Source of the DNA: Rhodocaloribacter litoris
GTDB taxonomy: Bacteria; Bacteroidota; Rhodothermia; Rhodothermales; ISCAR-4553
Reading direction: 5' to 3'
Length of the DNA stretch: 64,000 bases
Assembly (NCBI RefSeq): GCF_011682235.2
Contig: NZ_CP076718.1
Span: 1,130,693-1,194,692, forward strand
Shown: in pieces, positions 5,538 through 23,200 of the stretch
Layout: each line of letters opens with the position of its first letter
Position numbering within the stretch: position 1 is the stretch's first letter
Made by a program: the position numbers and the translations under genes
Notes under the pieces: model-generated
Database searches by the model: none
What the model was told of the DNA's origin: nothing
The model's input: only the letters and a program-made list of their open reading frames with translations

Positions 5538-5696
5538 CCCCGCTTCGCCCTCATGCCCTTCTTTTCGCCCGTTTCCGGGCATTTGCTACCGGAGTGACAT
5601 GATTTGAGACGAGGGTGTTATGCCCTTACGGGGAGGATGGACGAGACTGGAGGTATCGCACACGCGCCCTCCCCTTCCTCGCACCGTCCGCGCCCG

Positions 5697-6104
5697 ATGG
5701 ATGCTCCTGCCGACCGCTCCGAACCTTCCGGCTACGACATCCTGGTCGTGGACGACAATGCCGAGATGCGGGCCTATATCCGCCATTGCCTCCGGGACTT
5801 CGAAGGCGGCGGGCATCGCATCCGGGAGGCGGCCGACGGGCAGGAAGCGCTCGACGCCCTCGCGGGACACCCCTGTGACCTCGTCATCACCGACGTGGTC
5901 ATGCCCCGCATGGACGGGCTGACGCTCGGCCGGCTGGTGAGCGAGCACTACCCCGGCGTGCCGGTCCTCTTCATCACCGGCGAAGCCCCGGCCGACGCTC
6001 GCCGCCGGGCGGCGCGTCTCGCCACGGGGACCGTGCTGCCCAAGCCCTTCAACGGGCGCAAGCTGTGCCGGGCCCTCGATCACTTGCTTCATCCCCATTC
6101 CTGA
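5697..6104 (+). CDS. Stand-alone response regulator receiver protein
   Basis: This is a single CheY-like receiver domain with no output domain. DILVVDDNAEMRAYI carries the acidic pocket, D66 in VITDVVMPRMDG is the phospho-acceptor, and LPKPF supplies the conserved lysine near the C-terminus. The threonine-type switch position reads LFITGE. It sits between the hybrid sensor, whose stop is 159 bases upstream, and the giant surface-protein gene, whose start is 43 bases downstream, so it could act as a partner or phosphate sink for the hybrid system. I chose the ATG at 5697, giving 135 residues, because the receiver fold begins about 12 residues later. An ATG at 5637 and a TTG at 5604 would add a proline-rich leader unlike the family. 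Confidence 0.85.
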   Translation: MDAPADRSEPSGYDILVVDDNAEMRAYIRHCLRDFEGGGHRIREAADGQEALDALAGHPCDLVITDVVMPRMDGLTLGRLVSEHYPGVPVLFITGEAPADARRRAARLATGTVLPKPFNGRKLCRALDHLLHPHS

Positions 6105-6147
6105 AATCGTTCGACGTCTCTTGCTGGTCCTCACCCCCCCTTTCGTC

Positions 6148-9100
6148 ATGAATAGATCCACTGCCTCCCGTCTCGCCGTTCTGTTGGTGGGAACCGTGCT
6201 GTTCGTGGCGGGGATGCCCGCACGCGCCCAGGACACCGTCCCCGGCACACGGCTTGCCTTCGACGGCATCGACGATTATGCCAGAACCAACAATGGCATC
6301 CCCTTCGGGGCCACCTACACCCTCGAAGGATGGTTTCGCACCGACGGAGATGCGATGAGCGAGGCGGAAGACCTCCTCAGCGGGGCCGTACCCGGTGGCA
6401 CGTACATCCTCCTCGAAATCCGACCCTCGGGTCAGATACGCTACCTGCATCGCGTGCCGGCCGGAAGTGTGGGCGGGGCGGAAGTCCTCTCTCCGGCCAC
6501 CGTGAACGACGGCGCCTGGCACCACGTGGCCGCCGTCATGGACGGCACGGAGATCCGGCTCTACATCGACGGCGTGCTCGAAGCCTCAGCCCCCGAAACG
6601 TCGGCCATCAATGACAATGTGAACGTGTACCTGGGCAGCCTGGGCGATGGAGGCGGGCGCTTCTTCGGCGGAGGCATGGAGGAGGTTCGGGTGTGGAACG
6701 TGGCACGGACGGAGGCGGAGATCCGCGAGGCGATGCACCGCACGCTCAGCGGAACGGAATCCGGCCTCGTGGCCTACTGGCAGTTCAACGAGGGCGCCGG
6801 CTCGACGGCCGCCGACGTCGTGGGCGGGCACGACCTGACCCTGCAGAACGGCACCGCCTGGGCCGGGTCCGACGTGCCGGTGGCCGGGGGCGTGAGCGTG
6901 ACGCAGACGGAAGCCGACGGCCTGGTCGACTTCGCGGCAGCCGGCGTGTCGATGAGCTACACCGTGCAGAGCGGCGCTTCGGTCACGGTCACGCGTCTGG
7001 ATGCGGCGCCGGCGGTCGTGCCGGGTACGCTCGTGACGCCGTTCGACAGCCAGTACTGGGCCATCGAGCGCTATGGAACGGACACCTTCAGCGCCTCTGT
7101 CACCTTCACGGTGAGCGAGGACCTGACGATGGCCGACGAGGCCGACCCGGGACGAATCAAGCTGTTTCGTCGGTCGAGCACGGCGGGTATAGAACCGTGG
7201 GGCATAGTGGCGGCGGCTACGAGCGTAGACGCCGCGGCAAACACGGTGACGTTCGAGGGGATCACGGCCTTCGGGCAGTTTCTCGTCGGTCGCAGCGGCA
7301 CGCCCGATCCCATCGCCGGCACGTTGCTCGACTTCGACGGCGTCGACGACCGCGCCCACGCGGCGACGGATCTCAACCTGGGCGCTACGGACATCACCGT
7401 CGAGGCCTGGGTACGCCGCGGCTCCACAGACACCAACGATTTCTTCTTCTCGTACGGGGATGTCGGCGAGGGGCGCAACCAGGGTCTCTCGATGGGATAC
7501 CGGCCTACCAATGTTTTTGCCTCTGGATTTGCGGGCGGAAACGACCTGGACACGCCGGTGGCCTACACCGACACCGGCTGGCACCACTGGGCCGGGGTCT
7601 ACGTCCGGTCGACGGGCGAGCGGCGGCTCTACCGGGACGGTGTGCTGGTGGCCTCGGATGTGACCGGTGAGCCGTTCGAGGAAGTGGATGCCCCTGAACT
7701 TTTCCTGGGGCGCTTTTTCCTTCAGGCGAACTCGGACTTTGGTGGTGATCTGGAGGAACTGCGGGTGTGGAACACGGCACGGACGGAGACAGAGATCCGC
7801 GAGGGAATGCACCGGACGATGACGGGGACGGAATCGGGCCTTGTCGCCTACTGGCAATTCAACGAAGGTATCGGTACCACCGCGGCCGACGTCGTCGGCG
7901 GGCACGACGTGGCGTTGCAGAACGGCACCGCCTGGGCCGAGTCCGACGTGCCCGTGGCTGGAGGCGTGAGCGTGACCCGGACCGAAACCGACGGGATGGT
8001 CGACTTCTCGGCGGCCGGCGTGACGATGGACTTCGCCACGCAGAGCGGCGCGCAGATCACCGTCACCCGCCTCGGTGCGGCGCCGTCTTCCCTGCCCGAG
8101 GGCGGCTCGGTCGAGACGGTCCTCGACAGCCAGTACTGGATCATCGAACGCAATGGCCCGGGCAGCTTCGAGGCCGACGTGACGTTCACCGTGGCCGAGG
8201 ACCTGACGGGCGACGTGGCCGGGCGCATCCTGCTCTTCCGCCGCGACAGCCGCGCCGGCGCCGACGCCCCGTGGGAACAGGTGGGCGCGGCCGATAGCCT
8301 CGATGCTACCGCCAGAACGGTCACCTTCCGCGGCCTGACGACCTTCAGCCAGTTCGCTCTCGTGCGCGCGCCGGCGGCTGAGACCGTGCCGGGTTCGCTT
8401 CTCACCTTCGACGGTGTCGATGATTATGTTGAGATACTGGACAGCCCCGACTTTGCCTTCGACCGGGACAGTTCGTATACCGTCGAAACGTGGGTGCGCT
8501 ATACGGGCACCGGCGGAAGCGGCTCCGGCGACGGGGCCATCATCGAGAAGTGGAGCGGCGGGGCGGCCTCCTATCCATTCGTCCTGCGGGTCAACCGGCA
8601 GGAACCGGGACAGGTGTACTGCGCCGTGTGGGATCAGAGCACGGGTATCTCATCCCGGTCCCAGGGGAACCTCAACGATGGCGCCTGGCACCATCTGGCG
8701 TGCGTGCACGACGGGGCGAAGCGCACCCTGACCCTCTACGTGGACGGTGAACCCCAGGAGGTGGCCTCGACGGCCTCCGTGGGGTCGCTCGCCAATACCC
8801 ATCCCATCTATTTCGGACGGCGTGGCGGTCACCTGAACGAATGGTTCGGCGGGGATCTGGAGGAGGTACGCATCTGGCGCGTCGCGCGGACGGAAACCGA
8901 CGTTCGCGAAGCCATGCACCGGACCCTGACGGGCACGGAGCCGGGCCTGGTGTCGTACTGGCAGCTCAATGAAGGGACCGGCACGACGGCCGCCGACATC
9001 GTGGGCGGGCACGACGGGACGCTGAACGGCGGCACCGCCTGGGCCGCCTCCGACACGCCCGTCGGCGGCGGCGCGAGCGCCACGGCCACGGCGGCCCTCG

Positions 9101-12100
9101 GCCCGGTCAACTTCGCCGCGGCCGGCGTCACGATAAACTTCACGGCCAACACCACGGCGGACCCGATCATCGTGACGCGCCTCGACCTCGACCCGTTCGA
9201 TGCACCCGCCGGCGCGGCGCTGACGTTCCTCGGTGGGCGGTACTGGGTCGTCGAGCGCTTCGGCGACGGCGCCTTCGAAGCGTCGCTCACGTTCACGCTC
9301 GACGGCCTGACGGCGGACGACGCTGCCAATCCGGGTCGCCTCAAGCTGCTTCGCCGCGACAGCCGGGCCGCGGGCGGCACGTGGTCCGTCGTCGCCCACG
9401 GCCTCGCGGCGGACGCCGACGCGGGCACGGTCACGTTCCCCGGCGTGACCGGCTTCAGCCAGTTCGCCATCGCACGGGGGGGCACGCCCGGCACGCTCGC
9501 CGGAACCGCCGCCGACTTCGACGGCACCAACCACCTCGACGTGGGCGACCTGGGCGACTTCGGGCGACGCCTGAAGACGGCCACCGTCTCGTTCTGGATG
9601 AAGAGTGCTTCGGCGGCGTCCGGCTCGATCATGAAGGTCGAGGTCGATCCGGCCACGCCCACCGCGCCGGTCTTCGCCATCGAGGCCAACCGGCTGCTCT
9701 CGGCCGGCTGCACCGTGGGCGACGGCGCGGGCGCGACGCTGTTCTACGTGCGCGATAGCGCCGGGCGGGTGCTGGCCCGCCACATCACCGCGGACCTCTA
9801 CGACGGCACCTGGCACCACGTGGCCTGGGTGCTCACCGACGCCACGGCCAACCAGATGACCGTCTACGTGGACGGCGTCGCGCAGACGCTCAACGGCACG
9901 TGCTCGCAGTCCCCGGCGACGTTCGTGGACTGGGGGCAGCCGCTCTTCCTGGGCGCGGCCTCCGCCGCCGGCACCGCCGAAGACCACGCCGCCGTATCGC
10001 TCGACGAGGTGCGGTTCTGGACCCGCGCCCGCACGGACCGGCAGGTGCGCGAGGCGATGCACCATCCCCTGACCGGCGCGGAACCGGGCCTCGTCGCCTA
10101 CTGGCTGTTCAACGAGGGGACGGGCAGCACGGCCGCCGACCTCGTGGGCGGGCACGACGGGACGTTCGCGGGGGGCGACGGGTGGACGCCCGCCACGATG
10201 CCTTTCGGACCGGGCGTCTTCGCCCAGGAGACTGAGGCTGGCGGTCCGATCGACTTTGCCGGAACCGGCCTGGCGGCCGACTACCTCTCCCACAGCGGCT
10301 CCGTCGTCGGCGTCGACCGGATCGACCAGACGCCCGAGAATCCGCCGGGCGGGACGGCCATCGAGGTGTTCGAGGGTACCTACTGGCTCCTGACCCGCTA
10401 CACCGGTGGACCCTTCACGGCCGACCTGACCTTCACCACGACGGGCTTGACAGCCACCGACGCCGCCGCGCCCGGCCGGATCAAGCTCTTCCGCCGCGAG
10501 GGCAACAGCGACGGTACCTGGACCCTCTCGGCCAGCGCCGTCGCCGTAGATGAGGCCGCCGGTACGGTCACGTTCTCCGGCGTCTCGAAGAGCGGGCAGT
10601 ACGTCCTGGCCCGCGGGGAGGAAACACCGGCCGTGGCCGGCACGGCCCTCGACTTCGACGGCACCGACGACTTCGTGCGCGTGCCCGGCCTCGTGCTGCC
10701 CAACACCTTCACCCTCGAGATGTGGATCAACCCGCAGAGCGGCACCGACGGCCGCGCCTTCATCGCCAAGGATACCGGCAGCGACGGCGGCGGCTTCGGC
10801 AGCGAGGACCTGTTCAACATCGGCTTCTATGAGGGCAATCTGAGGGTTTTCCTTCGAAACCAGAAGCTCCTGGCGGGCAGCCGCGTCACCGGGCAGCAGC
10901 ACCTGGCCGTGGTCGTGCAACAGACCGGCACCTCGTCGCTCGTGACGGTCTACCGCAACGGCGTCCAGGTTGCCCGGGGCACGCTCGCGGCCGTCCTCGA
11001 TGACGACGGCTCCGGAGCCGACTGGACGTTCGGGCAGAACTGGGTGCTTCAGGCGCTGGCGAAGGCCCAGACCGACCCGCCCGCCGGCGATTTCTTCGAC
11101 GGCACGCTCGATGAAGTCCGCATCTGGACGACCGCCCGCACCGCCGCGCAGATTCGTTCGTCGATGCACCAGGTTTTTGGCGGCACCGTCGACGGGCTGC
11201 TCGCCTACTGGACGTTCAACGAAGGCACCGGCACCACGGCCGTCGACCTGGTGGCCGGGCAGGACGGCACACTCGAGGGTGGTACCGGCTGGGTGATCTC
11301 CGGCGCGCCGATCGGCGAGGCCGTCGTGGCCACCCGCACCGAGGCCGGCGGTCTGGTGGACTTCTCGGGCACCGGCCTGCAGGTCGACTATACCGCCCAG
11401 GACGGCGCAACGGTCTACGTCAGCCGCGTCGACGGGGCGCCCAACACCGTTCCTTCCGGCGTGACGCCCTTCGACGGGCAGTACTGGGTCCTCGAGCGCT
11501 TCGGCACCGGCGCGTTCACGGCCGATCTGACCTTCACCCCGTCCGAAGAGGTGGACGGGTACGACGAACTCCTGGCGGGTCGCCTCAAGCTGTACCGCCG
11601 CACCGGCGGGGCGGACGGCGCGTGGACGCCCGCCGCCGAGGCCGCCGAGGTCAACCCCTTCACCGGCACCGTCACCTTCCGCCGCATCAGCCAGCCCGGG
11701 CAGTACCTGCTCGTCCGCAGCGACGCCCGCGCCCTCGTCCTCGACGGCGTCGACGATGCCGCCACAACCACGCTGGCCGAGGATCTGGACTCGTGGACGC
11801 TGGAGGCCTGGGTGAAGGCCGACGCGGCGCCCTCCGCCGCAAAGACCACCGCCCTCGTCGAGCGCGGCGCCAACTACGCCCTCTTCTGGGATCATCCCGA
11901 CGCGACCGCACGCGGGGCCGCCGCCCTCACCATCGGCGGCACGCGGCACACGGCCTCCTTCGGCACACTGGAGGCCGGGCGCTGGTACCACCTGGCCGCC
12001 TCGTACGACGGCGAGACCCTCCGCGCCTATCGCAACGGCCGGCTCATCACCCAGAACGAGGACCCGTCCGGCCCGCCCGACGCGGACCCGTCCACGCTCG

Positions 12101-15100
12101 TCATGGGCCGCCACCAGGCCACCGGCGAGCACTTCGCCGGGCAGCTCGACGAGGTGCGGCTGTGGGACGTCTTCCGCACGGGCGACAGGATCCTGGCCGA
12201 CATGCAGCGCACGCTCGCCGGCGACGAGACCGGCCTGGCCGGCTACTGGCGCTTCGACCTGGCCGTGGGCGCCGGCGCCCGCGACCTCACCGGCGGCGGC
12301 CATGATGCCACGTTCACCGGCACGCCGGTGCTGGTGGCCTCCGGCGCTCCCGCCGACCTCGTCTTCCCCGGCGACGTCGCCGCCACCGACGGCGTCTTCG
12401 AGGATAAAACCGAGATCACCTGGCCGGCCCTGAACCTGCCCGACGTGACGGTCAAGATCTTCCGGGACGGCGCACAGATCGCCGTGGCGTCGAGCGACCG
12501 GACCCTGTATGCCGACATGAAGGGCACGCGCGGCACGGAGCACACCTACTGCCTGGTGCTCTCGGCCCCCTTCCGGGCCGACTCCGAGCCCGTCTGCGAC
12601 GCCGGCCGCCGCATCCTGTTCGCCCCGGACGACGTGGCCGCCACCGACAGCACACTGAGCGATCAGGTCCGGATCACCTGGGTGGACCGGTCGGCGTTCG
12701 AGACGGGCTTCAACGTCTACCGCGACGGCAGCCTGCTCGCCACGGTCGAGGCCGGGGTGCAGAGCTACAGCGACACGAGCGCCGCCGGCGGGATGACCCA
12801 CACCTACTGCGTCGAGGCCGAGGACGCCGACGGCATCCCGTCGGAACAGGGGTGTGACACCGGCAGCCGGGGCTTCGTCCTGCCCCCGCTCGCCGTCGCC
12901 GCCACCGACGGGCAGTACCCCGACCGCGTCGTCGTCACCTGGACCGACCAGGCCCCGGACGAGACCGGCTACCGCATCACCCGCGACGGCGTCGAGCTGG
13001 CGACACTGGCCGCCGGGACGACCTCGTACGACGACCTCACGCCGACCTCGGGCGTGGCCCACACGTACTGCGTCGTCACGCTCAACGGCAGCCTCGAATC
13101 GCTGCCCGCCTGTGACCAGGGCGGTATCGACATCCTCCCCGCGCCGGGCGACGTCACCGCCACGCGCGACACCTTCGATGATCGCGTCGAACTCACGTGG
13201 ACCGACCCGATCACGTTCGAGGACGGCTTCCGCGTCTACCGCCGCGACCTCGCCGGGACGGACTCGACGCTGCTCGTCACCACCGATCCGGGGGTGAAAC
13301 GCTACACCGACCCCGACGCCGAGCCGGGGGTGGACTACCGCTACTGCGTGACCACGCTGAGCACGGCCAGCGGCAGCGAGGTCGAATCCGTGGCGGCCTG
13401 CGCCGGGGGACGCCGCTCGCGGGTGCTGGCCCCCACGAACGTGGCGGCCACCGACGGCGACCACGAGAACCGGGTCGTGCTCACCTGGCAGAACCCCGCC
13501 ACCCGCGCGGTGCTGATGAACCTCTACCGGGTGGGAACGGACACCACCCTCATCAAGACCGTCTCCTCGGCCCTGACGAGCTACGAGGACTTCGGGCAGG
13601 CCTCGGGCACCGTGTACGCCTACTGCGTTTCGGCCGTCAACGAGGAGGCGGACGAGACGGCGAAGGTCTGTGACGAGGGCCACCGCATGCTGGCCGCCCC
13701 GACGAGCGTGGCCGCCACCGACGCCGAGAGCGAGGATTACGTCGAGGTGACATGGGTGGACAACTCCGGGATCGAGCAGGGCTACCGCGTCTACCGGCAG
13801 GCCGCCGGCGAGCCGGTTCGGGTGCTCGTCGGCACCACCGGCGCAAGCCAGGCCTCGTTCCAGGACTTCAGCGGCGCCTCGGGCGTGACCTACACCTACA
13901 GCGTCGTCGCCTTCGACGCCTACAGCGAGTCCGACGCCGGCACCGACGAGGGCTTCCGCACGCTGGCCGCCCCGACGAACGTGTCCGCCGCCGACGGCAC
14001 GGCCGAGGACCGCATCCGGATCACCTGGATCGACAACTCCCGCGCCGAGGATGGCTATCGCATCTACCGCCGCACGCTGGCCGACGAGGACTCCGTCGTC
14101 ATCGCCGAGGTGGGCAAGAACCGGGGCGTCTACGAGGACGCCACCGTGGTGCTGGGCGAGACGTATCGCTACAGCGTCGAGGCCTTCGACGCCCACGGCA
14201 CCTCGGCGGCGGGCTCGGACGTGGGCACGACCGTGCTCTTCGCCCCCGAGACGTTCAATGCCTCCGACACCTACACCGGCCGCGTCGTCCTCTCGTGGAT
14301 CGACCGCTCGGCCGTCGAGAGCGGCTACCAGGTGCTGCGCGACGATGTCCTCATCGCCACCACCGCGGCCGGCGCCACGACCTACATCGACTCGACGGCG
14401 GCGGGTGGCGCCTCATACACCTACTGCGTCCGTGCCACCGGCGGGCTGGCCTTCTCCGAACGGGCCTGCGACGCCGGCACCGCCATGGCCGGCGACCCGA
14501 TCCCCGCGCTCGGGGACAACGGCGTGGCCGCCTCCGACGGCGCCTTCGACACCCGCGTGCAGATCACCTGGTCCAACGCCGGCGTCGATGCCTCGCAGGG
14601 CCTGCGCATCCGCCGGGATGGGGTGGAGATCGACCAGACCGGCGCCGGGGCGACGTCCTACAACGACTTCGACGCGGCCCCGGGCACGCTGGCGCTCTAC
14701 TGCGTGGAGTCCGTCGCCACGGGCAGCACCGCGGGGTGCGACTATGGCTGGACGCCGCCCGACGGCTCCATCAGCGGCCGCGTGGCCTCCCGGCTCGGCG
14801 GCGGCATCGGCGACGTGGCCGTCTGCCTCGCCCCCAACCCGAACAAGGCCCTCCTCTTCGACGGCGAGGGCGGCACGGCCGTGGTGCAGGGCGTGGCGCT
14901 ACCCGACTCGTTCACCGTCGAGTTGTGGGTGCGTCCGGCCGCGCTGACCGGCCGGCAGGACCTGATCGCCCTGCCGAACCTGCGGCTCGGCCTCACCGGC
15001 GCGAAGCTGCGCCTCGACTACGGCACGGACCGCATCGAAAGCGCCGACCTGGTCACCACCGCCTGGCAGCACGTGGCGCTGACCGTCCACCAGAACCGCA

Positions 15101-18100
15101 CGGGCCCCACCAGCGACGTCAGGCTCTACCGCGACGGCATCCTGGTGCTCACGACGACCTTCAACCAGGTGCTCGACACGGGGACGCACGACTGGTCCTT
15201 CGGCGGTGACACGACGAACGGGGACCACTTCAGCGGGCGTCTGGATGAAGTGCGGTGGTGGAACGGCGTGAAGCCGGCTGACGTCCTCGCCGCCTCGGCG
15301 GCCGAGGCCCGCCCCCTCACCGGCAACGAGGACGGCCTGCTCGCCTACTGGCCGATGGACCAGGGCGCCGGCCGGATCGCCGGGGACCGCTCCGGCGGCA
15401 ACGCCCACGCGGCCTTCGCCGGCGGCGTCTACTGGACCGACGACAGCGCCCCGCTCGAAGCCTGCGGCACGACCGACGCCGAGGGCAACTACACCGTGGC
15501 CGGCCTCCGCTACGGCAGCGGCACCACGTTCACCGTCACCCCCCGCCTCGGCGCCCGCGCCTTCGACCCGGCCTTCAAGAAAATCACGCTCAACGCCAAC
15601 AGCCCCGTCCAGAACGAGGTCGACTTCACCGACGTCTCGGCCTTCACCATCGCCGGCACGGTGCAGTTCGCCGGCACCACCTGCCCCGTCCCCGACGCCG
15701 ACGTATACCTCGACGGCGTCTTCAAGGGCAAAACCGAGTCCGACGGCACCTACAGCATCGCGGCCGACATCGGCGAGCGCATCGTGGAGGTGCGCCGGGG
15801 CGAAGCCGGCGACGCGCATCCCTTCACACCCGCTTCGGCCACCGTCACTGTCGAGGACGACGTCTTCGGCGTCGACTTCACCGACGGCAAGACGCGCCGG
15901 CTCTCGGGCTACTTCGGCGGAAGCTGCAACACCGGCATCGGCACGGCCACCATCCGCATCTTCACGGCCGACGGCTGCTTCGAGAAGGTCATCGAGACCA
16001 GCGGCAACTACGCGGTCGAGTTGCCGCCGCAGAAGTACCTGGTGCAGGTGACCGGCGTCGAGACGACGAACACGCAGCTCAAGGCGGACATCCTCGCCTT
16101 CTTCGACAACCTCGGGGCGCAGGAGGTGGACCTGACCGAGCAGGCGGACACGCTCGACCTGATCTACCGCGCGCCGCTGGCACTGGCCCTCAGCGGCTTC
16201 CCGGATCCGCCGGCGGCCTGCAGTGCCGGCTTCAACGGCGGCAGCCTCCCGGCTGTGCCGGTGCTCGCGCAGGGCGTCTCCTACCCGCTCACGATCACCG
16301 TCGTCGAGGACTACGGCAACGGGCAGACGTGCCCGCTCGAAGAAGGCACCCTGACCGTGACCGACGGCCTCGGCAACGAAACCGTCGTGACCACGCTCGA
16401 CCTCGTGGACGGCGCAGCCATCTATACGACCACGGCCGGCCCACCGGACATCTTCAGCGGGCGCACCATCGACGGCGTCAACCGCTCCTTCCAGAAGTCG
16501 CTCCACGTCGTTGCCGAGGTTGAGGGCCGGACGCCGGTCAGCGAGACGACCTGGGCCCTCATCGAAGGGGCCCGGGCCCGGACGGCCACGTTTGTCTCCG
16601 CCACGACGGGCGAGATCCCGCTGATGATCCTGCACGACCCGCCCGGCAGCAACTCGTACAGCTACCTCGAGAAAGGAAGGACCGTCTGCAACAGCGTCAG
16701 CCACATGAAGCTCTCGGGCGGCGATGCCGGTGTCGAGTTTGACCTCGTGCTCGGCTTCAAGTCGGCAAACGGCCTGGGCGTGATGATCGAAAGCGGCGCC
16801 GGGCTCGCCGTGCGCGGCCGGTTCGTGGGCGGGCAGGACGTGACCGAACTCGACCAGAATGACGGCAAACGCTCGCTGGAGATCTGCGCCACGGCAACGG
16901 AACGCTTTTCGACCTCCGACGACCCGACCTGGGTCGGCGAAGACCTCTTCGTCGGGGTGGCCTTCAACCTCATCTTCGCGGAAGCCGACGTGCTTTCCGC
17001 CGATGCCGCCGCCTGCACCGTCGAACTCTCGGAAACACTCGCCACGGACTTCGACGAGGTCGAGCCCTTCGAGACGGTGTACGTATATGGCGCGAGCCAC
17101 ATCGCCTCTTCGCTCATCCCGGAGCTGGAGAACCTCATCGCGCTGGCGGGAGAAGACGCTGCGATCGAGCTGATCGAAGAGATGGACCTGTCTCCGCTGA
17201 TCGGAGGCGATCTCGGTGAGGCGACGTTCCAGACCAGGCGGCTCCTGCTGACGGAAGCCCTGGCCTACTGGCAGGGGATGCTCGACCGGAACGAAGCAAA
17301 CAAGGCCCGGGCCCTCGAGACGCCGTACATCAACCGCTCGTTCAGCGGCGGCGCCACGTTCGAATACGCGCTGAATGAGGTCGAGACGGAAACCACCTTC
17401 GCCCGAACGACCCGCACCTACTTCGAAAGCAGCGGGGGCGTCGGCAGCGTGCTCACGGGAGCCGGGTACGACCAGACGGGGCTCATCGTGTACGACGCCC
17501 GTCACGAGGTGACCAAGGACACGCTGGCGACGGACGAGGAGACCCATCTGATGGGCTACGTCCTCTCCGACGGCGACACGGGCGACTTCTTCTCGGTCGA
17601 CATCGGGAAGGATCCCGAGTACGGCACGCCCGTCTTCGGCACCGTCAGCGGGCGCAGCTCCAACCCGTGGGAGGCCAACACGCAACGGCGGGACTATCCG
17701 AAGCTGGAGATCAGCCCGTCCGCGCAGTTCGACGTGCCGCCGGACGAGTCGGCCATCTTCACCCTCTCGATCCTCAATGCCAGCGAGAGCCAGGAGCGCC
17801 GCGAGTACATCCTGGACGTGCTGCGCGAGTTCAATCCCGGCTCCGCCGTCATCGGCATCACGGGGGACCCCATCGGGCAGGAGCGCTTCCTCGTTGAGCC
17901 CGGCCAGGCCATCAACGTGACGCTCGCCGTCGACCGCGGGCCCGAGCGGTATGCGTACGACAGCCTCGCCCTGATCCTCTACCCGCAGAAGGAGTTCGAG
18001 ATCTGGCAGGCCGATCCGCGACAGCCCTTCGTCATGGCGGACACGGCCTTCTTCAGCGTCCACTTCGCCGCTCCGTGCAGCGAGATCGCCATCCTTCGCC

Positions 18101-20811
18101 CGAAAGAACACTGGATCTACGACGCCGCCATGGCCGAGGCCGGCGACTCGGTGGAGGTCATCCTGCACGACTTCGCGCTCCAGGAGGCCGACGCCGACCC
18201 GGTCGAAGCCATCGGGCTGGAGTACCGCCTGCAGGACACGCCGGACTGGCTGCCGGCGCTCCAGGTGCAGGCCTCCACGCTCGACCCGGAAGCCACCTCG
18301 TACGTGGCCTCGTGGAAGCCGCCGGCCGACGGGCGCTATGAGGTGCGGGCCTTCGCGTCGTGCCCGGGCGGGACGACGTACTCCGAGCCCTTCCCCGGCA
18401 CCGCGGACACGAAGCGGCCCGAACCCTTCGGCACGCCGCAGCCCGCCGACGAGACCCTGGCCCTGGGCGACGACATCGCCATCACCTTCAACGAGGACAT
18501 CGACTGCGCCACCGTCAGCACCACGGGGCAGTTTCCCAACGTCCGGTTGAGCTACCTCGACGGCCCGGATGCCGGCACGGCGATTCCGGTCGAGGCCGCG
18601 TGTGACGGGCGGACGATCATCCTCGAGCCCGGGGTCGAGGCCGCCTCCCTGGAAGGCCGCCTGCTGGAGACCCGCCTGCGGGCGAACGTCGTCGACGGGC
18701 AGGGCAATCCGGTCGTAATCACGGACGCCGTGGGGAACGGCATCGCCGAGGACATCGCCTGGACGTTCACCGTGCGGCAGAGCGCCTTCACGTTCAGCCC
18801 GGTCAACCTCGACTTCGCGCTGTCCCGGGGAACGGGGGCGCTCGTGGTCACGAGCCTGGTCAACGGCCGCGCCCAGCCGATCGACTTCACGCTGCCCGCG
18901 TCGTTCGACCTGGTGCTGGCCTCCGACACGACGGTGAAGGTGCCCGTGGCGCCGTCGGACACGGCCGGGACGCTGGTGGCCGGCGGCAGCCGGGCCATCC
19001 GGATGACGCTGCCCGACACGCTGGCGCTGGGCACGTACAGCGGCACGCTGCTGGCCTCGGCCACCGACGCCGGGGGCAACAGCCTGGGACAGACGCCCTT
19101 CTTCCTCACCACCGAGGTCGTCTGTGCCCCCCCGGCCTGGGAGGTCGATCCGGCCGCCTTCGAGCATTCGATGACGCTCACGGCCCAGCTCTTCTTCGAC
19201 GGCGCGGCCTCGACGGACACGAGCGACGTGCTGGTCGCCTTCGTGGACAACGAGGCGCGGGGCGTGGGCCGCGTCGAGGCGGTTTCCCCCGGCGTCTACC
19301 GCATCAACCTCCTCATCTACAGCAACGTGGCCTCGGGCGAGGTGGTCACGTTCCGCGCCTGGGACGAGAGCACGTGCACGCTGCACACGGAGACGAGCAA
19401 GACGCTCGTGTTCGAAAGCGGCGCGGTGCACGGCAGCTTTGCCCAGCCCGTGCCGGTCCAGGCGCCCCCGGTCGTCGACGAGCAGGCCATCCCGCTGGCG
19501 GCCGGGTGGACGTGGTTCTCGCTCAACAAGCACCCGGACGACACCGACGTGAGCGCCGTGCTGGGCGACCTGGCCGCCGTCGAGGGCGACCTGGTCAAGA
19601 GCCAGGCCGCCTTCAGCCTCTACGACGACCGCTTCGGCTGGGTGGGGACGCTGCCGTCGCTCGAGGCGGGACCGGCCTACCTGATCCACCTGCAGCAGTC
19701 GAACAGCCTGACGGTGACGGGCCTCGCCGTCGACCCCGCCGCCGAGCCGATCGACCTGGTGCCCGGATGGAACTGGGTGGGCTACCTCCCCGCCGCGCCG
19801 ATGGACGTCAACACGGCACTGGCCTCGCTCGACGCGACGGCAACCCCCGGCGACGTCATCAAGAGCCAGTTCGCCTTCGCCCAGTACGTGGATGCGACGC
19901 TTGGCTGGGTCGGCTCGCTGACGACGATGGAGCCGGGCCTGGGATACCAGATCCAGGTGGCCAGCGCCGGCACGCTGACCTACCCGGGCAGCGAGGCCGC
20001 CCGCGACCTGCCGCCGCCGCTCCGGGTGATGGTCGTCGACCGGACGGCACCGCCCCGGCGCGTGGCGAAGGCGGTGGCGCTGGCGGAGACCGCCGGGACG
20101 GAGCACGCGGCCGGGTCCACCGGCAAGACGGCATCCCTGCAGGCGCTCCCGGCCCGTGAAGAGGCCAAAGAACACCGGGAAGACGCCGCCGGGGGACCGG
20201 ACTGGACACTCGACCCGAAAGCCTATCCGTTCTCGATGAGCGTGGTGGCCGAGCCGGTAGTGGACGACCTGCCGCTGACGGCGCCGGGCACCCGGCTGGG
20301 CCTGTTCGCCGGGGACGAGCTGCGCGGCGCCGGCCAGGTGCGCTACGTGCCGGGCCTGGAGCGCTACCTGGTCTTCGCGATGGCCTACGGCGATGAGCCG
20401 GTTGAGCTCACGGTGCGGCTCTACGACCCGATGCGGGGCAAGGTGCTCGACGCCGGCACGGTCGCCTTCGAGCCGGACACGGCGCTGGGCACGCCCGCCG
20501 AGCCGCTGATGCTGGCCGTGACGACGGAGGCCACCGAGGACCTGCCGGCCGTCTTCGCGCTGGCCCCGGCCTACCCCAACCCGTTCCACCCGGCCACGAG
20601 CCTTCGCTATGACCTGCCCCGCCCCGAGCACGTCCGCCTCGAGGTGTACGACGTGATCGGGCGGCGCGTGGCCACGCTCGTCGACGCACGGCAGAAGGCC
20701 GGGCGGTACGAGGTACGCTTCGACGCCCGCCACCTGGCCAGCGGCGTGTACGTCTACCGCCTCCGGGCCGGAGACTTCGTACAGACGCGCAAGATGGTGT
20801 TGCTCAAATGA
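6148..20811 (+). CDS. Giant T9SS-exported multidomain surface protein (LamG, fibronectin-like, sorting domain)
   Basis: This 4887-residue protein has a signal peptide ending at MPARAQ and a C-terminal type IX sorting domain (AYPNPFHP motif, VYDVIGRRV, GVYVYRL, ending KMVLLK). Modules in order: five LamG-like lectin folds (starting near residues 31, 391, 749, 1115 and 1496), each opening with a FDGxDD-type motif and each followed by a beta-rich spacer of about 120 residues; a sixth LamG (about 1862-2070); nine fibronectin-like repeats (about 2070-2870) with VAATDG openings and paired cysteines; a seventh LamG (about 2901-3110) nested among carboxypeptidase-regulatory-like folds (to about 3320); a long unassigned region; a Big_5-like domain (about 4090-4210); two copies of the AAFVGEE-type module (about 4329-4434 and 4684-4790); and a tandem W-rich repeat (about 4450-4615). 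It is probably an adhesin or glycan-binding surface protein. Its stop overlaps the next start (ATGA). An upstream in-frame TTG at 6121 is less likely as the start. Confidence 0.9.
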   Translation: MNRSTASRLAVLLVGTVLFVAGMPARAQDTVPGTRLAFDGIDDYARTNNGIPFGATYTLEGWFRTDGDAMSEAEDLLSGAVPGGTYILLEIRPSGQIRYLHRVPAGSVGGAEVLSPATVNDGAWHHVAAVMDGTEIRLYIDGVLEASAPETSAINDNVNVYLGSLGDGGGRFFGGGMEEVRVWNVARTEAEIREAMHRTLSGTESGLVAYWQFNEGAGSTAADVVGGHDLTLQNGTAWAGSDVPVAGGVSVTQTEADGLVDFAAAGVSMSYTVQSGASVTVTRLDAAPAVVPGTLVTPFDSQYWAIERYGTDTFSASVTFTVSEDLTMADEADPGRIKLFRRSSTAGIEPWGIVAAATSVDAAANTVTFEGITAFGQFLVGRSGTPDPIAGTLLDFDGVDDRAHAATDLNLGATDITVEAWVRRGSTDTNDFFFSYGDVGEGRNQGLSMGYRPTNVFASGFAGGNDLDTPVAYTDTGWHHWAGVYVRSTGERRLYRDGVLVASDVTGEPFEEVDAPELFLGRFFLQANSDFGGDLEELRVWNTARTETEIREGMHRTMTGTESGLVAYWQFNEGIGTTAADVVGGHDVALQNGTAWAESDVPVAGGVSVTRTETDGMVDFSAAGVTMDFATQSGAQITVTRLGAAPSSLPEGGSVETVLDSQYWIIERNGPGSFEADVTFTVAEDLTGDVAGRILLFRRDSRAGADAPWEQVGAADSLDATARTVTFRGLTTFSQFALVRAPAAETVPGSLLTFDGVDDYVEILDSPDFAFDRDSSYTVETWVRYTGTGGSGSGDGAIIEKWSGGAASYPFVLRVNRQEPGQVYCAVWDQSTGISSRSQGNLNDGAWHHLACVHDGAKRTLTLYVDGEPQEVASTASVGSLANTHPIYFGRRGGHLNEWFGGDLEEVRIWRVARTETDVREAMHRTLTGTEPGLVSYWQLNEGTGTTAADIVGGHDGTLNGGTAWAASDTPVGGGASATATAALGPVNFAAAGVTINFTANTTADPIIVTRLDLDPFDAPAGAALTFLGGRYWVVERFGDGAFEASLTFTLDGLTADDAANPGRLKLLRRDSRAAGGTWSVVAHGLAADADAGTVTFPGVTGFSQFAIARGGTPGTLAGTAADFDGTNHLDVGDLGDFGRRLKTATVSFWMKSASAASGSIMKVEVDPATPTAPVFAIEANRLLSAGCTVGDGAGATLFYVRDSAGRVLARHITADLYDGTWHHVAWVLTDATANQMTVYVDGVAQTLNGTCSQSPATFVDWGQPLFLGAASAAGTAEDHAAVSLDEVRFWTRARTDRQVREAMHHPLTGAEPGLVAYWLFNEGTGSTAADLVGGHDGTFAGGDGWTPATMPFGPGVFAQETEAGGPIDFAGTGLAADYLSHSGSVVGVDRIDQTPENPPGGTAIEVFEGTYWLLTRYTGGPFTADLTFTTTGLTATDAAAPGRIKLFRREGNSDGTWTLSASAVAVDEAAGTVTFSGVSKSGQYVLARGEETPAVAGTALDFDGTDDFVRVPGLVLPNTFTLEMWINPQSGTDGRAFIAKDTGSDGGGFGSEDLFNIGFYEGNLRVFLRNQKLLAGSRVTGQQHLAVVVQQTGTSSLVTVYRNGVQVARGTLAAVLDDDGSGADWTFGQNWVLQALAKAQTDPPAGDFFDGTLDEVRIWTTARTAAQIRSSMHQVFGGTVDGLLAYWTFNEGTGTTAVDLVAGQDGTLEGGTGWVISGAPIGEAVVATRTEAGGLVDFSGTGLQVDYTAQDGATVYVSRVDGAPNTVPSGVTPFDGQYWVLERFGTGAFTADLTFTPSEEVDGYDELLAGRLKLYRRTGGADGAWTPAAEAAEVNPFTGTVTFRRISQPGQYLLVRSDARALVLDGVDDAATTTLAEDLDSWTLEAWVKADAAPSAAKTTALVERGANYALFWDHPDATARGAAALTIGGTRHTASFGTLEAGRWYHLAASYDGETLRAYRNGRLITQNEDPSGPPDADPSTLVMGRHQATGEHFAGQLDEVRLWDVFRTGDRILADMQRTLAGDETGLAGYWRFDLAVGAGARDLTGGGHDATFTGTPVLVASGAPADLVFPGDVAATDGVFEDKTEITWPALNLPDVTVKIFRDGAQIAVASSDRTLYADMKGTRGTEHTYCLVLSAPFRADSEPVCDAGRRILFAPDDVAATDSTLSDQVRITWVDRSAFETGFNVYRDGSLLATVEAGVQSYSDTSAAGGMTHTYCVEAEDADGIPSEQGCDTGSRGFVLPPLAVAATDGQYPDRVVVTWTDQAPDETGYRITRDGVELATLAAGTTSYDDLTPTSGVAHTYCVVTLNGSLESLPACDQGGIDILPAPGDVTATRDTFDDRVELTWTDPITFEDGFRVYRRDLAGTDSTLLVTTDPGVKRYTDPDAEPGVDYRYCVTTLSTASGSEVESVAACAGGRRSRVLAPTNVAATDGDHENRVVLTWQNPATRAVLMNLYRVGTDTTLIKTVSSALTSYEDFGQASGTVYAYCVSAVNEEADETAKVCDEGHRMLAAPTSVAATDAESEDYVEVTWVDNSGIEQGYRVYRQAAGEPVRVLVGTTGASQASFQDFSGASGVTYTYSVVAFDAYSESDAGTDEGFRTLAAPTNVSAADGTAEDRIRITWIDNSRAEDGYRIYRRTLADEDSVVIAEVGKNRGVYEDATVVLGETYRYSVEAFDAHGTSAAGSDVGTTVLFAPETFNASDTYTGRVVLSWIDRSAVESGYQVLRDDVLIATTAAGATTYIDSTAAGGASYTYCVRATGGLAFSERACDAGTAMAGDPIPALGDNGVAASDGAFDTRVQITWSNAGVDASQGLRIRRDGVEIDQTGAGATSYNDFDAAPGTLALYCVESVATGSTAGCDYGWTPPDGSISGRVASRLGGGIGDVAVCLAPNPNKALLFDGEGGTAVVQGVALPDSFTVELWVRPAALTGRQDLIALPNLRLGLTGAKLRLDYGTDRIESADLVTTAWQHVALTVHQNRTGPTSDVRLYRDGILVLTTTFNQVLDTGTHDWSFGGDTTNGDHFSGRLDEVRWWNGVKPADVLAASAAEARPLTGNEDGLLAYWPMDQGAGRIAGDRSGGNAHAAFAGGVYWTDDSAPLEACGTTDAEGNYTVAGLRYGSGTTFTVTPRLGARAFDPAFKKITLNANSPVQNEVDFTDVSAFTIAGTVQFAGTTCPVPDADVYLDGVFKGKTESDGTYSIAADIGERIVEVRRGEAGDAHPFTPASATVTVEDDVFGVDFTDGKTRRLSGYFGGSCNTGIGTATIRIFTADGCFEKVIETSGNYAVELPPQKYLVQVTGVETTNTQLKADILAFFDNLGAQEVDLTEQADTLDLIYRAPLALALSGFPDPPAACSAGFNGGSLPAVPVLAQGVSYPLTITVVEDYGNGQTCPLEEGTLTVTDGLGNETVVTTLDLVDGAAIYTTTAGPPDIFSGRTIDGVNRSFQKSLHVVAEVEGRTPVSETTWALIEGARARTATFVSATTGEIPLMILHDPPGSNSYSYLEKGRTVCNSVSHMKLSGGDAGVEFDLVLGFKSANGLGVMIESGAGLAVRGRFVGGQDVTELDQNDGKRSLEICATATERFSTSDDPTWVGEDLFVGVAFNLIFAEADVLSADAAACTVELSETLATDFDEVEPFETVYVYGASHIASSLIPELENLIALAGEDAAIELIEEMDLSPLIGGDLGEATFQTRRLLLTEALAYWQGMLDRNEANKARALETPYINRSFSGGATFEYALNEVETETTFARTTRTYFESSGGVGSVLTGAGYDQTGLIVYDARHEVTKDTLATDEETHLMGYVLSDGDTGDFFSVDIGKDPEYGTPVFGTVSGRSSNPWEANTQRRDYPKLEISPSAQFDVPPDESAIFTLSILNASESQERREYILDVLREFNPGSAVIGITGDPIGQERFLVEPGQAINVTLAVDRGPERYAYDSLALILYPQKEFEIWQADPRQPFVMADTAFFSVHFAAPCSEIAILRPKEHWIYDAAMAEAGDSVEVILHDFALQEADADPVEAIGLEYRLQDTPDWLPALQVQASTLDPEATSYVASWKPPADGRYEVRAFASCPGGTTYSEPFPGTADTKRPEPFGTPQPADETLALGDDIAITFNEDIDCATVSTTGQFPNVRLSYLDGPDAGTAIPVEAACDGRTIILEPGVEAASLEGRLLETRLRANVVDGQGNPVVITDAVGNGIAEDIAWTFTVRQSAFTFSPVNLDFALSRGTGALVVTSLVNGRAQPIDFTLPASFDLVLASDTTVKVPVAPSDTAGTLVAGGSRAIRMTLPDTLALGTYSGTLLASATDAGGNSLGQTPFFLTTEVVCAPPAWEVDPAAFEHSMTLTAQLFFDGAASTDTSDVLVAFVDNEARGVGRVEAVSPGVYRINLLIYSNVASGEVVTFRAWDESTCTLHTETSKTLVFESGAVHGSFAQPVPVQAPPVVDEQAIPLAAGWTWFSLNKHPDDTDVSAVLGDLAAVEGDLVKSQAAFSLYDDRFGWVGTLPSLEAGPAYLIHLQQSNSLTVTGLAVDPAAEPIDLVPGWNWVGYLPAAPMDVNTALASLDATATPGDVIKSQFAFAQYVDATLGWVGSLTTMEPGLGYQIQVASAGTLTYPGSEAARDLPPPLRVMVVDRTAPPRRVAKAVALAETAGTEHAAGSTGKTASLQALPAREEAKEHREDAAGGPDWTLDPKAYPFSMSVVAEPVVDDLPLTAPGTRLGLFAGDELRGAGQVRYVPGLERYLVFAMAYGDEPVELTVRLYDPMRGKVLDAGTVAFEPDTALGTPAEPLMLAVTTEATEDLPAVFALAPAYPNPFHPATSLRYDLPRPEHVRLEVYDVIGRRVATLVDARQKAGRYEVRFDARHLASGVYVYRLRAGDFVQTRKMVLLK

Positions 20812-21902
20812 GGCCTCGTTTCATGCAAAGACCGGTGCGAACCATGTACCGACGGGCGATGCCGTACGGGCTCGGCCTGATGCTGATCGGCTGGCTCCTT
20901 TCAGCCGCCGTGAGCCCTGCCCAGACCCCCTCGTGGTCTGTCGAGCCGTCCCGGTTCCAGTCGTCGATGAGCCTGACGGGCGTCGTCGAGCAGGACGGCC
21001 GGCGGCTCGGCGCGGCGGGAGACCTCCTGGCGGCATTCGTCGGGGAGGAGGTACGCGGCGTGGCCGGACCGGTGACGGTCGGCAGCGACGTGCTGTTCTT
21101 CCTGGCGGTCTATGCCAACGCCGACGGAGAGGCGGTGACGTTCCGCTTCTATGAGGCCTCCACGGGGCTGATCCACGACATTGCGGAGACGCAGGTGTTC
21201 GAGACGAACGCCGTACGCGGGCTGGTGTCGGCCCCGCTGGTGTGGACGACCGGCGCGGCGGGCGGCCCGGCATGGCAGGTGGACCCGGCCCCCTTCGCCG
21301 CGTCGATGAACGTCACGGGGACGTTCGTGGTGGGGGAGCGCCGGCCCGGCAGCGGGGCGCTGGTGGCGGCGTTCGCCGGAGAGGAGGTGCGCGGCGTAAC
21401 CGGCTCCGTCGACGTGGGCGGCACGCCGTTGTTCTTCCTGACGGTCTACGCCAACGGGCCGGGCGAAACCCTCACGTTCCGCATCTTCGACCCGTTCACG
21501 GGGCGGGTCCACGAGGCCGCCGAAACGCTGGCTTTCGAGGCGAACGGGGTCGTGGGCAGCGTCACCAGCCCGTTCGTCTGGCACGCGGACACGGCCACGC
21601 ACGCGGCGCATGAGGACGCGCCGGCGGCCTTTCATCTGGAAGCCCCCTACCCCAACCCGTTCGGCACGGCGATACGCATCCCGTACGTGCTGGATGCCCC
21701 GTCGCCGGTCCGCCTGACCGTCTACGACCTGCTCGGCCGGGTCGTGGCCCGGCTCGTCGAAGGCATGCAAGCCGCCGGGCCGCACGAGGCCGTCCTGGCG
21801 GGCGCCGGCCTGCCCGATGGCCTCTACCTGGTCCGCCTCGAAGCCGGAGATCGGGTGACCACGCGAACCGTCACCCGGCTTGCCGGATCCCGGAAACCAT
21901 GA
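20808..21902 (+). CDS. T9SS-exported protein with two AAFVGEE-type modules
   Basis: This 364-residue protein begins with a signal peptide (start MRPRFMQR, hydrophobic core about residues 21-38, cleavage near AQTPS). It has two tandem copies of a module of about 110 residues, opening SWSVEPSRFQSSM and AWQVDPAPFAASM and both continuing with LLAAFVGEEVRGV- or LVAAFAGEEVRGV-like cores, then a type IX sorting domain with APYPNPFG and VYDLLGRVVARL. The same module occurs in both neighbouring genes. Its ATG overlaps the stop of the giant gene and its own stop overlaps the next start, so the three are translationally coupled. No enzyme motif is visible, and a structural or anchoring role on the cell surface is an inference. 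A second ATG six codons in is possible. Confidence 0.85.
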   Translation: MRPRFMQRPVRTMYRRAMPYGLGLMLIGWLLSAAVSPAQTPSWSVEPSRFQSSMSLTGVVEQDGRRLGAAGDLLAAFVGEEVRGVAGPVTVGSDVLFFLAVYANADGEAVTFRFYEASTGLIHDIAETQVFETNAVRGLVSAPLVWTTGAAGGPAWQVDPAPFAASMNVTGTFVVGERRPGSGALVAAFAGEEVRGVTGSVDVGGTPLFFLTVYANGPGETLTFRIFDPFTGRVHEAAETLAFEANGVVGSVTSPFVWHADTATHAAHEDAPAAFHLEAPYPNPFGTAIRIPYVLDAPSPVRLTVYDLLGRVVARLVEGMQAAGPHEAVLAGAGLPDGLYLVRLEAGDRVTTRTVTRLAGSRKP

Positions 21903-23200
21903 AGCCACGAATCCTTCCGCTCCTGCTGCCGGCCGTCCTGCTCGCGCCGGGCCTCGCTCACGCCCAGCCCGACTGGAGCCCGGACGGCACCTACGGCCAG
22001 TCGATGACGGTCGTGGCCGTCGTGCATTTCGACGGTGTGCCGTCGGACGACCCCGCAGACCTGCTCGCCGGCTTCGCCGGCGGCGTCTCGCGCGGGGTGG
22101 CCTCCCCCCTGCTCGTCGGCGGGACCTACGTGTTCTTCCTGAACCTGGGCGGAGACATGACCGGCGAAGCCCTCACCTTCCGGGCCTACGACGCCTCGAC
22201 GGGGACGGAGCGCCCGCTCTGTGAAGGCGTTACGTTCGTGCCGGACGCAATCCGGGGCACGCTGGACGACCCCTTCCGGTTGTACACGTCGGACGGCCCC
22301 TCGCCCTGCGCGTTGCACTGGCGCGTGGCGCCCGGCCTCACGAACCAGATGACGGTGCATGCGGCCGCCTTCGTCAACGGCCTGCGGCTCCAGGACCCGG
22401 CAGACCGGGTGGCGGCCTTCGTGGGCGGCGAGGTGCGCGGTGTGGGCGTGCCCTTCGACGCCGGCGGCGAGCAGGTCTATCGCATCGAACTCTACGGGGT
22501 GACGGAAGGCGAACCCGTGGGCTTCCGCGCCTATGACGCCGCGACAGGCGTGACGTACGTGATGGCGGAACAGGTTGCCTTTGCGACGGGGACGACCCAG
22601 GGCACGCCGGGCGCGCCGGTCACGCTGACGAACGCGGCGGCGCTGCCGGTCGAGCTGGCCTCGTTTGCGGCCGTGCCCGACGGCGCCGCCGTGGTGCTCC
22701 GCTGGACGACGGCCACGGAGACGAACAACGCCGGCTTCGAGGTCCAGCACTTCGAAGGCGCCTGGCGCCCGCTCGCCTTCGTCGAAGGGCAGGGCACCAC
22801 GGCCGAAGGCCATGCCTACCGGCACCGCGTCGAGGGCCTGGCGCCGGGCCCGCACCGCTTCCGGCTCCGGCAGGTCGACTTCGACGGCCGGTTCGCCTAC
22901 AGCCCGGAGGTGTCGGTGACGCTCGGCGTGCCGGGGGCGTACGTGCTCTCGGCGGCCTACCCGAACCCGGTGCGGGACCGGGCCGGCGTCACGCTCTCGG
23001 TAGCCGTGTCCCAGCACGTGTGCGTAGCCCTGTTCGACGTGCTCGGCCGCCGCCTCCGCGTGCTCGTCGATGGGCCGATGGACGCCGGCCGGCCGCACCG
23101 CCTCATGTTCGACGCCGCCGGCCTGCCCGCCGGGCCGTATCTGCTCCGGGCCGAGGGCGAGCGGTTCCACGCAACCCGGACGGTGATGCTACTGAAATAG
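21899..23200 (+). CDS. T9SS-exported protein with two AAFVGEE-type modules and a beta-sandwich domain
   Basis: This 433-residue secreted protein has a clear signal peptide (MKPRILPLLLPAVLL, cleavage after AHA). Two module copies follow: DWSPDGTYGQSM with LLAGFAGGVSRGV, then LHWRVAPGLTNQM with VAAFVGGEVRGV. Next comes a segment of about 90 residues starting PVELASFAAVPDG and containing LRWTTATETNNAGFEVQ, a fibronectin-like stretch often seen just before T9SS sorting domains. The sorting domain itself has AAYPNPVRD and LFDVLGRRLRVL and ends TVMLLK. It is the last gene of the operon-like run that starts with the hybrid sensor and is followed by a strong intrinsic terminator. The function is unknown beyond surface display. 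Confidence 0.85.
   Translation: MKPRILPLLLPAVLLAPGLAHAQPDWSPDGTYGQSMTVVAVVHFDGVPSDDPADLLAGFAGGVSRGVASPLLVGGTYVFFLNLGGDMTGEALTFRAYDASTGTERPLCEGVTFVPDAIRGTLDDPFRLYTSDGPSPCALHWRVAPGLTNQMTVHAAAFVNGLRLQDPADRVAAFVGGEVRGVGVPFDAGGEQVYRIELYGVTEGEPVGFRAYDAATGVTYVMAEQVAFATGTTQGTPGAPVTLTNAAALPVELASFAAVPDGAAVVLRWTTATETNNAGFEVQHFEGAWRPLAFVEGQGTTAEGHAYRHRVEGLAPGPHRFRLRQVDFDGRFAYSPEVSVTLGVPGAYVLSAAYPNPVRDRAGVTLSVAVSQHVCVALFDVLGRRLRVLVDGPMDAGRPHRLMFDAAGLPAGPYLLRAEGERFHATRTVMLLK

Follow-up and report, generated by a model that had tools for sequence, protein, structure and literature searches.

To our knowledge, no role is assigned to many of the giant proteins that the T9SS exports, nor is it established by what means they are retained and arranged once outside the cell. 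The locus described here has a module that occurs twice in a giant T9SS protein and twice in each of two secreted proteins encoded directly downstream. It lies in a window of 64,000 nucleotides from Rhodocaloribacter litoris (contig NZ_CP076718.1, positions 1,130,693 to 1,194,692), whose coordinates are used throughout.

Six copies of one module in three overlapping genes

The giant comprises, from its N to its C terminus, a signal peptide, at least seven LamG domains, FN3-like repeats, an Ig-like domain (Big_5), a first module (position A), a domain that we call g, a second module (position C) and a sorting domain. Coupling of the three adjacent genes, as proposed in the initial annotation, is borne out at both junctions, each of which is an ATGA overlap: at 20808-20811 the start codon of partner gene 1 overlaps the stop codon of the giant, and at 21899-21902 partner genes 1 and 2 overlap in turn. 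The features are as follows.

6148..20811, + strand: gene for the giant T9SS protein (ATG at 6148, product of about 4,890 aa)
19132..19458, + strand: module copy 1, in the giant (position A, before the g domain)
19480..19986, + strand: g domain, two repeats of about 82 residues (GWTWFS... and GWNWVG...)
20197..20514, + strand: module copy 2, in the giant (position C, after the g domain)
20572..20799, + strand: type A T9SS sorting domain, in the giant (TIGR04183, 37.7 bits, above cut-off)
20808..21902, + strand: partner gene 1, encoding a signal peptide, two tandem modules and a sorting domain
20928..21245, + strand: module copy 3, in partner 1 (AlphaFold pLDDT 97.4)
21267..21581, + strand: module copy 4, in partner 1
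21648..21872, + strand: type A T9SS sorting domain, in partner 1 (TIGR04183, 35.6 bits, above cut-off)
21899..23200, + strand: partner gene 2, encoding a signal peptide, two tandem modules, a linker domain and a weak sorting-domain match
21968..22285, + strand: module copy 5, in partner 2
22313..22630, + strand: module copy 6, in partner 2
22958..23164, + strand: sub-threshold sorting-domain match of partner 2 (PF18962, 17 bits against a 27-bit cut-off)

All six copies that had been noticed in the sequence are present, with their limits refined, and each was recovered by phmmer, by alignment and by profile search of the genome. The module is about 105 residues long, and the copies align over their whole length (106 columns) and not merely within the core motif. 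Ten columns are identical in all six (W3, M14, F37, R43, G44, E68, R73, F91, G98 and P103), the conserved core reads AAFVGxExRGVA ... G98 ... P103, and the conserved aromatics are W3 and a W, Y or F at position 75. Every pair of copies matched with E ≤ 4e-9 in an all-against-all phmmer comparison (best 1e-34), and across the 4.5 Mb genome the six-copy profile that the initial annotation had proposed building matched these six and no others, with E-values of 5e-38 to 2e-46. The full-length alignment and the genome-wide E-values rule out chance or low-complexity similarity as the source of the module.

Only these three genes in the genome bear the module, as against 83 T9SS sorting-domain matches, which rules out the module as a general T9SS feature. 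A narrower role in T9SS sorting, processing or attachment might still be imagined, for example as a sorting-domain accessory that slows release or helps the giant cargo fold, and the module does immediately precede the sorting domain in giants. The same count of genes speaks against such a role, however, as does the presence of the module in lipoproteins that have no sorting domain and in a giant with a dockerin end, that of a 'Desulfobacteraceae' MAG (L039); we consider it very improbable. Sorting domains of type A or B (TIGR04183/PF18962 and TIGR04131), which give surface attachment, are like the module small beta-sandwiches and occur in the same proteins, but they sit C-terminal to the modules, the TIGR04183 and PF18962 models do not match the modules, and the module is not itself a C-terminal secretion signal. 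The predicted fold of the giant's sorting domain resembles the CTDs of PorU, mirolase and PorZ (Z 9.3-10.3), and it is on the sorting domain, not on the g domain, that the structural matches of a 561-residue model fall.

Family searches and predicted fold

We find no Pfam-A or NCBIfam match over the modules of the three window proteins, and among 54 relatives searched against Pfam and NCBIfam no family is common to more than two, even at an E-value of 0.1. A PDB sequence profile search with the module likewise gave nothing significant. Together, these searches rule out a known domain overlooked by a single-sequence scan, and the claim that the module belongs to no named family held. Judged by sequence, the module thus stands as undescribed within the Pfam, NCBIfam and PDB sequence libraries, and our literature search found no paper on the module or on LamG/T9SS giants. 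The g domain, which is flanked by two modules in nearly all giants, also has no name in Pfam or NCBIfam. Two unnamed families, M (the module) and g, are thereby defined, which extend from Rhodothermales and rumen and gut Bacteroidota to Cloacimonadota.

AlphaFold predicts the module to be an all-beta sandwich (pLDDT 97), whose fold neighbours are generic only (CBM20-like and Ig-like, Z < 7). In Foldseek, the top PDB matches are starch-binding domains of the CBM20 type, with E 0.02-0.03 and probability 0.96-0.97, and CBM20 and CBM41 occur among the VIA matches with Z 5-6.4. These neighbours raise the main alternative to a docking role, namely that the module binds carbohydrate, in which case the giant and its partners would attach to a polysaccharide outside the cell or to surface glycan of the cell itself (A-LPS or capsule) and would need no contact with one another. 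The many LamG domains of the giant, the avidity that tandem copies could provide, and the conserved W3 and aromatic position 75 are all consistent with this. Nevertheless, the Foldseek E-values are never below 1e-3 and the VIA scores are equalled by unrelated folds; Pfam CBM models match none of the 54 members; and the module, although similar in size and beta-sandwich arrangement to CBM20 and CBM41, its best but weak structural neighbours, has no sequence relationship to them and stands in a window without enzyme context. We regard carbohydrate binding as somewhat unlikely.

Giants, partners and anchors across phyla

Across Bacteroidota, Neomarinimicrobiota and Cloacimonadota the module has a wide but patchy distribution. 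It occurs mainly in a cassette, M-g-M followed by the CTD, that ends giants in all three phyla. A second secreted ORF with the module follows the giant within 700 nt at 43 of 59 loci, which is an overestimate, the motif of the genome scan (run with a profile from a subset of copies) favouring partner-type modules. Of the roughly 15 giants that a profile of Rhodothermales modules found in the phylum sample, 9 have a partner. Several giants have no adjoining partner (L016, L020, L109, L113, L114 and L115).

Partners alternate in their anchors while the module is kept. Among those lacking a lipobox, 30 of 35 carry a sorting domain (TIGR04183 in 28 and TIGR04131 in 2) and others end in dockerin-like repeats, whereas none of the 12 partners with a lipoprotein signal has a sorting domain. 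This exclusivity (Fisher p 1.2e-7) is partly confounded with lineage, most lipobox partners being from Bacteroidales/Prevotella. The downstream, separately anchored partner that a giant-plus-partner complex calls for is thus seen in the gene overlaps, in the recurrence of the pair and in the exclusivity of the two anchors. In partners with an ordinary signal peptide the module begins within a few residues of it, while in lipoprotein partners a linker of about 15-70 residues intervenes. Several lipobox partners begin with a CSSDDD-type sequence, resembling the LES surface-export signal described for Bacteroidota surface lipoproteins (PMC5080379), but they differ from the proteins described there in consisting mainly of an unnamed module and in adjoining a giant that mostly has a T9SS sorting domain. 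A single module and little else make up the lipoprotein partners of L111 and L112, each encoded beside a giant with its own sorting domain. Among the smallest partners, mature lipoproteins barely exceed one module, and a binding role of some kind seems to be needed for them.

In a tree of the copies, these group across phyla by position (before g, after g, or partner), with 44 label changes as compared with 131.8 when labels are shuffled. Both this grouping and the single-module lipoproteins bear on the possibility that the module is a passive stalk or spacer like other Ig-like repeats, spread to neighbouring genes by duplication. Duplication within gene clusters is common, the module is all-beta, and tandem arrays reach 12 copies (L145 and L146). 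However, subfamilies specific to position are retained across phyla, copies in Bacteroidota lie mostly in the M-g-M cassette or directly after the signal peptide of a partner, and lipoproteins with one module make poor sense as spacers, so that we think a passive role unlikely. Giant adhesins also have Ig-like domains (Big_5, Big_9, PKD and cadherin-like), which are likewise beta-sandwiches repeated in large surface proteins, but the module, with a conserved core of its own and fixed positions, forms a family apart from them.

The initial annotation placed the module in the three-gene setting, which by profile search is its sole site in the host genome, and did not note its use outside that setting, chiefly in Cloacimonadota and Neomarinimicrobiota. 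Some genomes of these two phyla have 37-95 copies each (counted in the ten records to which the loci studied belong). A broader role in these phyla is likely because the module is amplified there in many large secreted proteins, sometimes with cohesin, PKD or cadherin-like repeats.

A candidate docking module

The retention of this arrangement across several phyla suggests that the module helps to hold the giant and its partners together at the cell surface. More specifically, we propose, with a probability of roughly 0.45, that the module is a docking or assembly part of a surface complex formed by a giant and its anchored partners, inferring both the contact and the adhesion. The giant would be an adhesin-like LamG/FN3/Ig protein, exported by the T9SS with its far end outward, and the M-g-M cassette, which adjoins the sorting domain, would lie near the membrane. 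The small partners, one or two in number and made from overlapping genes, would be attached to the cell surface, in most lineages through a T9SS sorting domain of their own and in others through a lipoprotein anchor. They would present one to five modules at or shortly after the signal peptide, and might retain or cap the giant by contacts of module with module or of module with g. The initial annotation had guessed at a contact of this kind; the recurring partner, the clustering by position, the switch of anchor and the one-module lipoproteins lend it indirect support, while the several giants without a partner count against it. A conserved gene pair with the same module on a giant and on a separately anchored partner is a concrete and testable candidate for a surface contact.

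The proposed docking complex would work somewhat like the cohesin-dockerin systems of cellulosomes, among which we count that of the scaffoldin-like Ca. Stygibacter protein (PMC8542988). In both, a large protein at the surface, itself without catalytic activity, bears beta-sandwich modules, and partners dock on it, a step that is predicted for the present complex. Dockerin-like repeats end some partners and one giant, as noted above, and a cohesin is present, outside the module, in one Cloacimonadota module protein. In contrast to that system, none of the 54 modules matches Pfam cohesin (PF00963), no enzymes are attached, and the partner, whose gene adjoins that of the giant, in most lineages carries the module rather than a dockerin.

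A bolder version seems doubtful to us. In it, bacteria of the FCB group would share a widespread and so far undescribed extracellular assembly whose homotypic coupling unit would be the module: a tail-fibre-like protein, a giant adhesin and an anchor protein with the module would be encoded in a row, the anchor (T9SS sorting domain, lipoprotein or dockerin) would be interchangeable, and a phage would have acquired the module beside its tail-fibre gene. The module or its fold is present in a single IMG/VR contig (L118) and a single BFVD protein (TM 0.88). Phage copies nonetheless seem rare, since tblastn of phage records and a first viral scan found no module, and on this balance a phage origin of the module was set aside. 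The host genome has no S74 fibre protein. The tail-fibre-like protein of the putative FCB assembly would have an N-terminal IQGxLRD domain and an end of the S74, collar or Gp10 type.

The module and its six copies

The initial annotation placed a module that it could assign to no named family twice in each of three adjacent T9SS genes, and delimitation, alignment, phmmer and a genome-wide profile search all bear this out. The genes encode a large T9SS surface protein (the giant) and two small secreted module proteins directly downstream (the partners), with an ATGA overlap at each of the two junctions, in a window with a G+C content of 68.6% whose genome is a single contig of 4.50 Mb.

Features of the giant/partner cluster (ORF reading of the window; window coordinates)
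6121-20811, same strand as both following ORFs: giant ORF
19132-19458, in the giant ORF: module copy 1
19480-19986, between the two modules of the giant: g domain, two GWNW-type repeats
20197-20514, in the giant ORF: module copy 2
20808-21902, same strand as the giant, directly following it: partner ORF 1
20928-21245, in ORF 20808-21902: module copy 3
21267-21581, in ORF 20808-21902: module copy 4
21899-23200, same strand as the giant, directly following ORF 20808-21902: partner ORF 2
21968-22285, in ORF 21899-23200: module copy 5
22313-22630, in ORF 21899-23200: module copy 6

All six copies, each ~105 residues long, align end to end, beyond the core motif, with 10 invariant columns, and every pair is significant in an all-against-all phmmer comparison (E 4e-9 to 1e-34; small database). 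Across the whole genome their profile matches only these six places (E 5e-38 to 2e-46), whereas the T9SS type A sorting domain has 83 matches there; the module is thus a trait of this gene cluster, and a general T9SS cargo feature is ruled out.

Neither Pfam-A nor NCBIfam holds a model matching the modules of the three window proteins or of 54 homologues, and a PDB profile search gave chance-level matches only. The annotation had also proposed predicting the structure, and AlphaFold2, given 102 homologues, returned a very confident all-beta model of eight strands (pLDDT 97.4, pTM 0.88). Foldseek found nothing in the PDB under E 1e-3 for this model, and VIA-align gave Z values of at most 6.7, scattered across unrelated beta-sandwich folds, which by its own caution may reflect merely a common arrangement. 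From these missing sequence matches and weak, scattered structural ones we take the module to be an unnamed family whose fold is of a common kind. The top Foldseek matches, weak ones (E 0.02-0.03), are CBM20 starch-binding domains, and with this CBM20-like arrangement possible carbohydrate binding is the main rival to a role in assembly; a passive structural unit ranks after it. Conserved residues W3, E41, R43, G44, G98 and P103 are candidate core or contact residues.

The cassette of the giants

Iterated profiles show that one architecture dominates close to the C-terminus of giants, which are about 1,500-5,000 aa long where they carry it: a module (position A), the g domain, a second module (position C) and, in most, a sorting domain. 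The g domain, present in nearly all giants and unnamed in Pfam and NCBIfam, has 168 residues that align as two repeats of ~82 (GW[NT]W[FI][SG] ... GDxIKSQ ... GWxGxL ... GYxxxxxxxxTLxYP). In the window giant, a predicted fold like that of the PorU, mirolase and PorZ CTDs (Z 9.3-10.3) shows the sorting domain to be genuine, and the last ~1,000 residues have matches in more of the fetched proteins than does the part made of LamG and FN3 domains. We note that the giant at L039:959-5458 (a fetched locus) carries two modules, g and a third module, with dockerin-like repeats in place of the sorting domain, and that in a 'Desulfobacteraceae' MAG (L138) a giant terminates in g-related repeats.

Partners, their anchors and a possible role in assembly

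Of 59 proteins that carry g with a module behind it and have enough sequence downstream, 43 are followed by another module ORF, its first module beginning within 700 nt; this fraction is too high because the scan of the genomes relied on a motif resembling that of partners. A phylum search by profile alone found a partner beside 9 of about 15 giants. Since giants with no adjacent partner exist, a partner is not always needed. In a poorly resolved tree of 228 modules, copies group strongly by position, whether A, C or partner (44 changes versus 131.8 in shuffles), suggesting that these positions are probably old and distinct.

Partner anchors, judged by eye as signal peptides or lipoboxes, fall into two kinds. 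Behind an ordinary signal peptide the module starts within a few residues; behind a lipobox it follows a linker of roughly 15-70 residues. TIGR04183 occurs in 28 and TIGR04131 in 2 of the 35 non-lipobox partners, several others of which terminate in dockerin-like repeats (L044, L071, L074, L077), and a sorting domain occurs in none of the 12 with a lipoprotein signal such as LGACSSDDD... or FFGCKKES... (Fisher p 1.2e-7, with rows non-independent through relatedness). The CSSDDD starts resemble the Bacteroidota surface-export signal that transfers lipoproteins to the outside (PMC5080379). At L111 and L112, adjoining a giant that has a T9SS sorting domain, the entire mature lipoprotein partner is a short linker and one module. 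The module is the partner's sole constant part and the anchor is interchangeable; this provides the best argument that it is the module that acts, and that it acts at the cell surface. On the reading that fits best, partners would be surface-fixed receptors or caps holding the giant's membrane-near M-g-M cassette (module, g, module). Module-mediated assembly of the surface proteins is a proposal that indirect evidence from the genomes partly supports; surface-protein assembly modules are a known kind, to which this case would add two unnamed domains.

Distribution and neighboring genes

Judged by the module, the closest named record is from Roseithermus sacchariphilus (83%), which puts the window most likely in Rhodothermales. 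The module occurs in 8 of 40 related genomes, the window's own included, and in 11 of 394 in a phylum sample, a patchiness that makes it probably an accessory trait. The family is nevertheless widely distributed: scanning 84,980 species genomes yielded 51 loci, in Rhodothermia, Cytophagia-type, Saprospirales, Chitinophagales, Balneolales, Bacteroidales and Prevotella records, Neomarinimicrobiota, Cloacimonadota and one MAG labelled Desulfobacteraceae. Some Cloacimonadota and Neomarinimicrobiota carry 37-95 copies per genome. In the expansion loci (L138, L139 and L144-L152 in Cloacimonadota and a Desulfobacteraceae MAG; L124-L135 in Neomarinimicrobiota), PKD, cadherin-like, LamG and cohesin domains are intermixed with modules and some proteins end in dockerin repeats. 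A link between this expansion and the cellulosome-like system reported in Ca. Stygibacter (PMC8542988) is possible.

Directly upstream of 11 of the 45 giants with upstream sequence at hand (L041, L045, L048, L107-L112, L116, L134) lies a gene for a secreted, tail-fibre-like protein. These proteins have an N-terminal domain in common (IQGxLRDxxxxxVxDGxYxLxFxLY), and six of those scanned against Pfam end in a Peptidase_S74, phage collar or Gp10_C domain. The window's genome has no S74 domain. On an IMG/VR virus contig (IMGVR_UViG_3300033064_001947), a single-module protein (L118:9791-10285) adjoins a tail-fibre gene that encodes a Peptidase_G2 autoproteolytic domain, and BFVD entry A0A0F7L4H0, from an uncultured marine virus, has the module's predicted fold (TM 0.88, E 5e-7).

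In place of the tail-fibre-like gene, the window giant is preceded by genes for a hybrid two-component regulator, composed of sensor, histidine kinase, receiver and AraC-type end, and for a lone receiver-domain protein, at about 1500-6104 and ending just upstream of it. At L015, L019 and perhaps L049, too, a receiver-like gene precedes the giant, and the cluster may therefore be expressed under signal control. Convergent with the cluster, at 23476-26787, lies the gene of an Oar-like TonB-dependent outer-membrane protein that has a carboxypeptidase-regulatory-like domain at its N-terminus. Like the genes just upstream of the giant, it was identified from the sequence.
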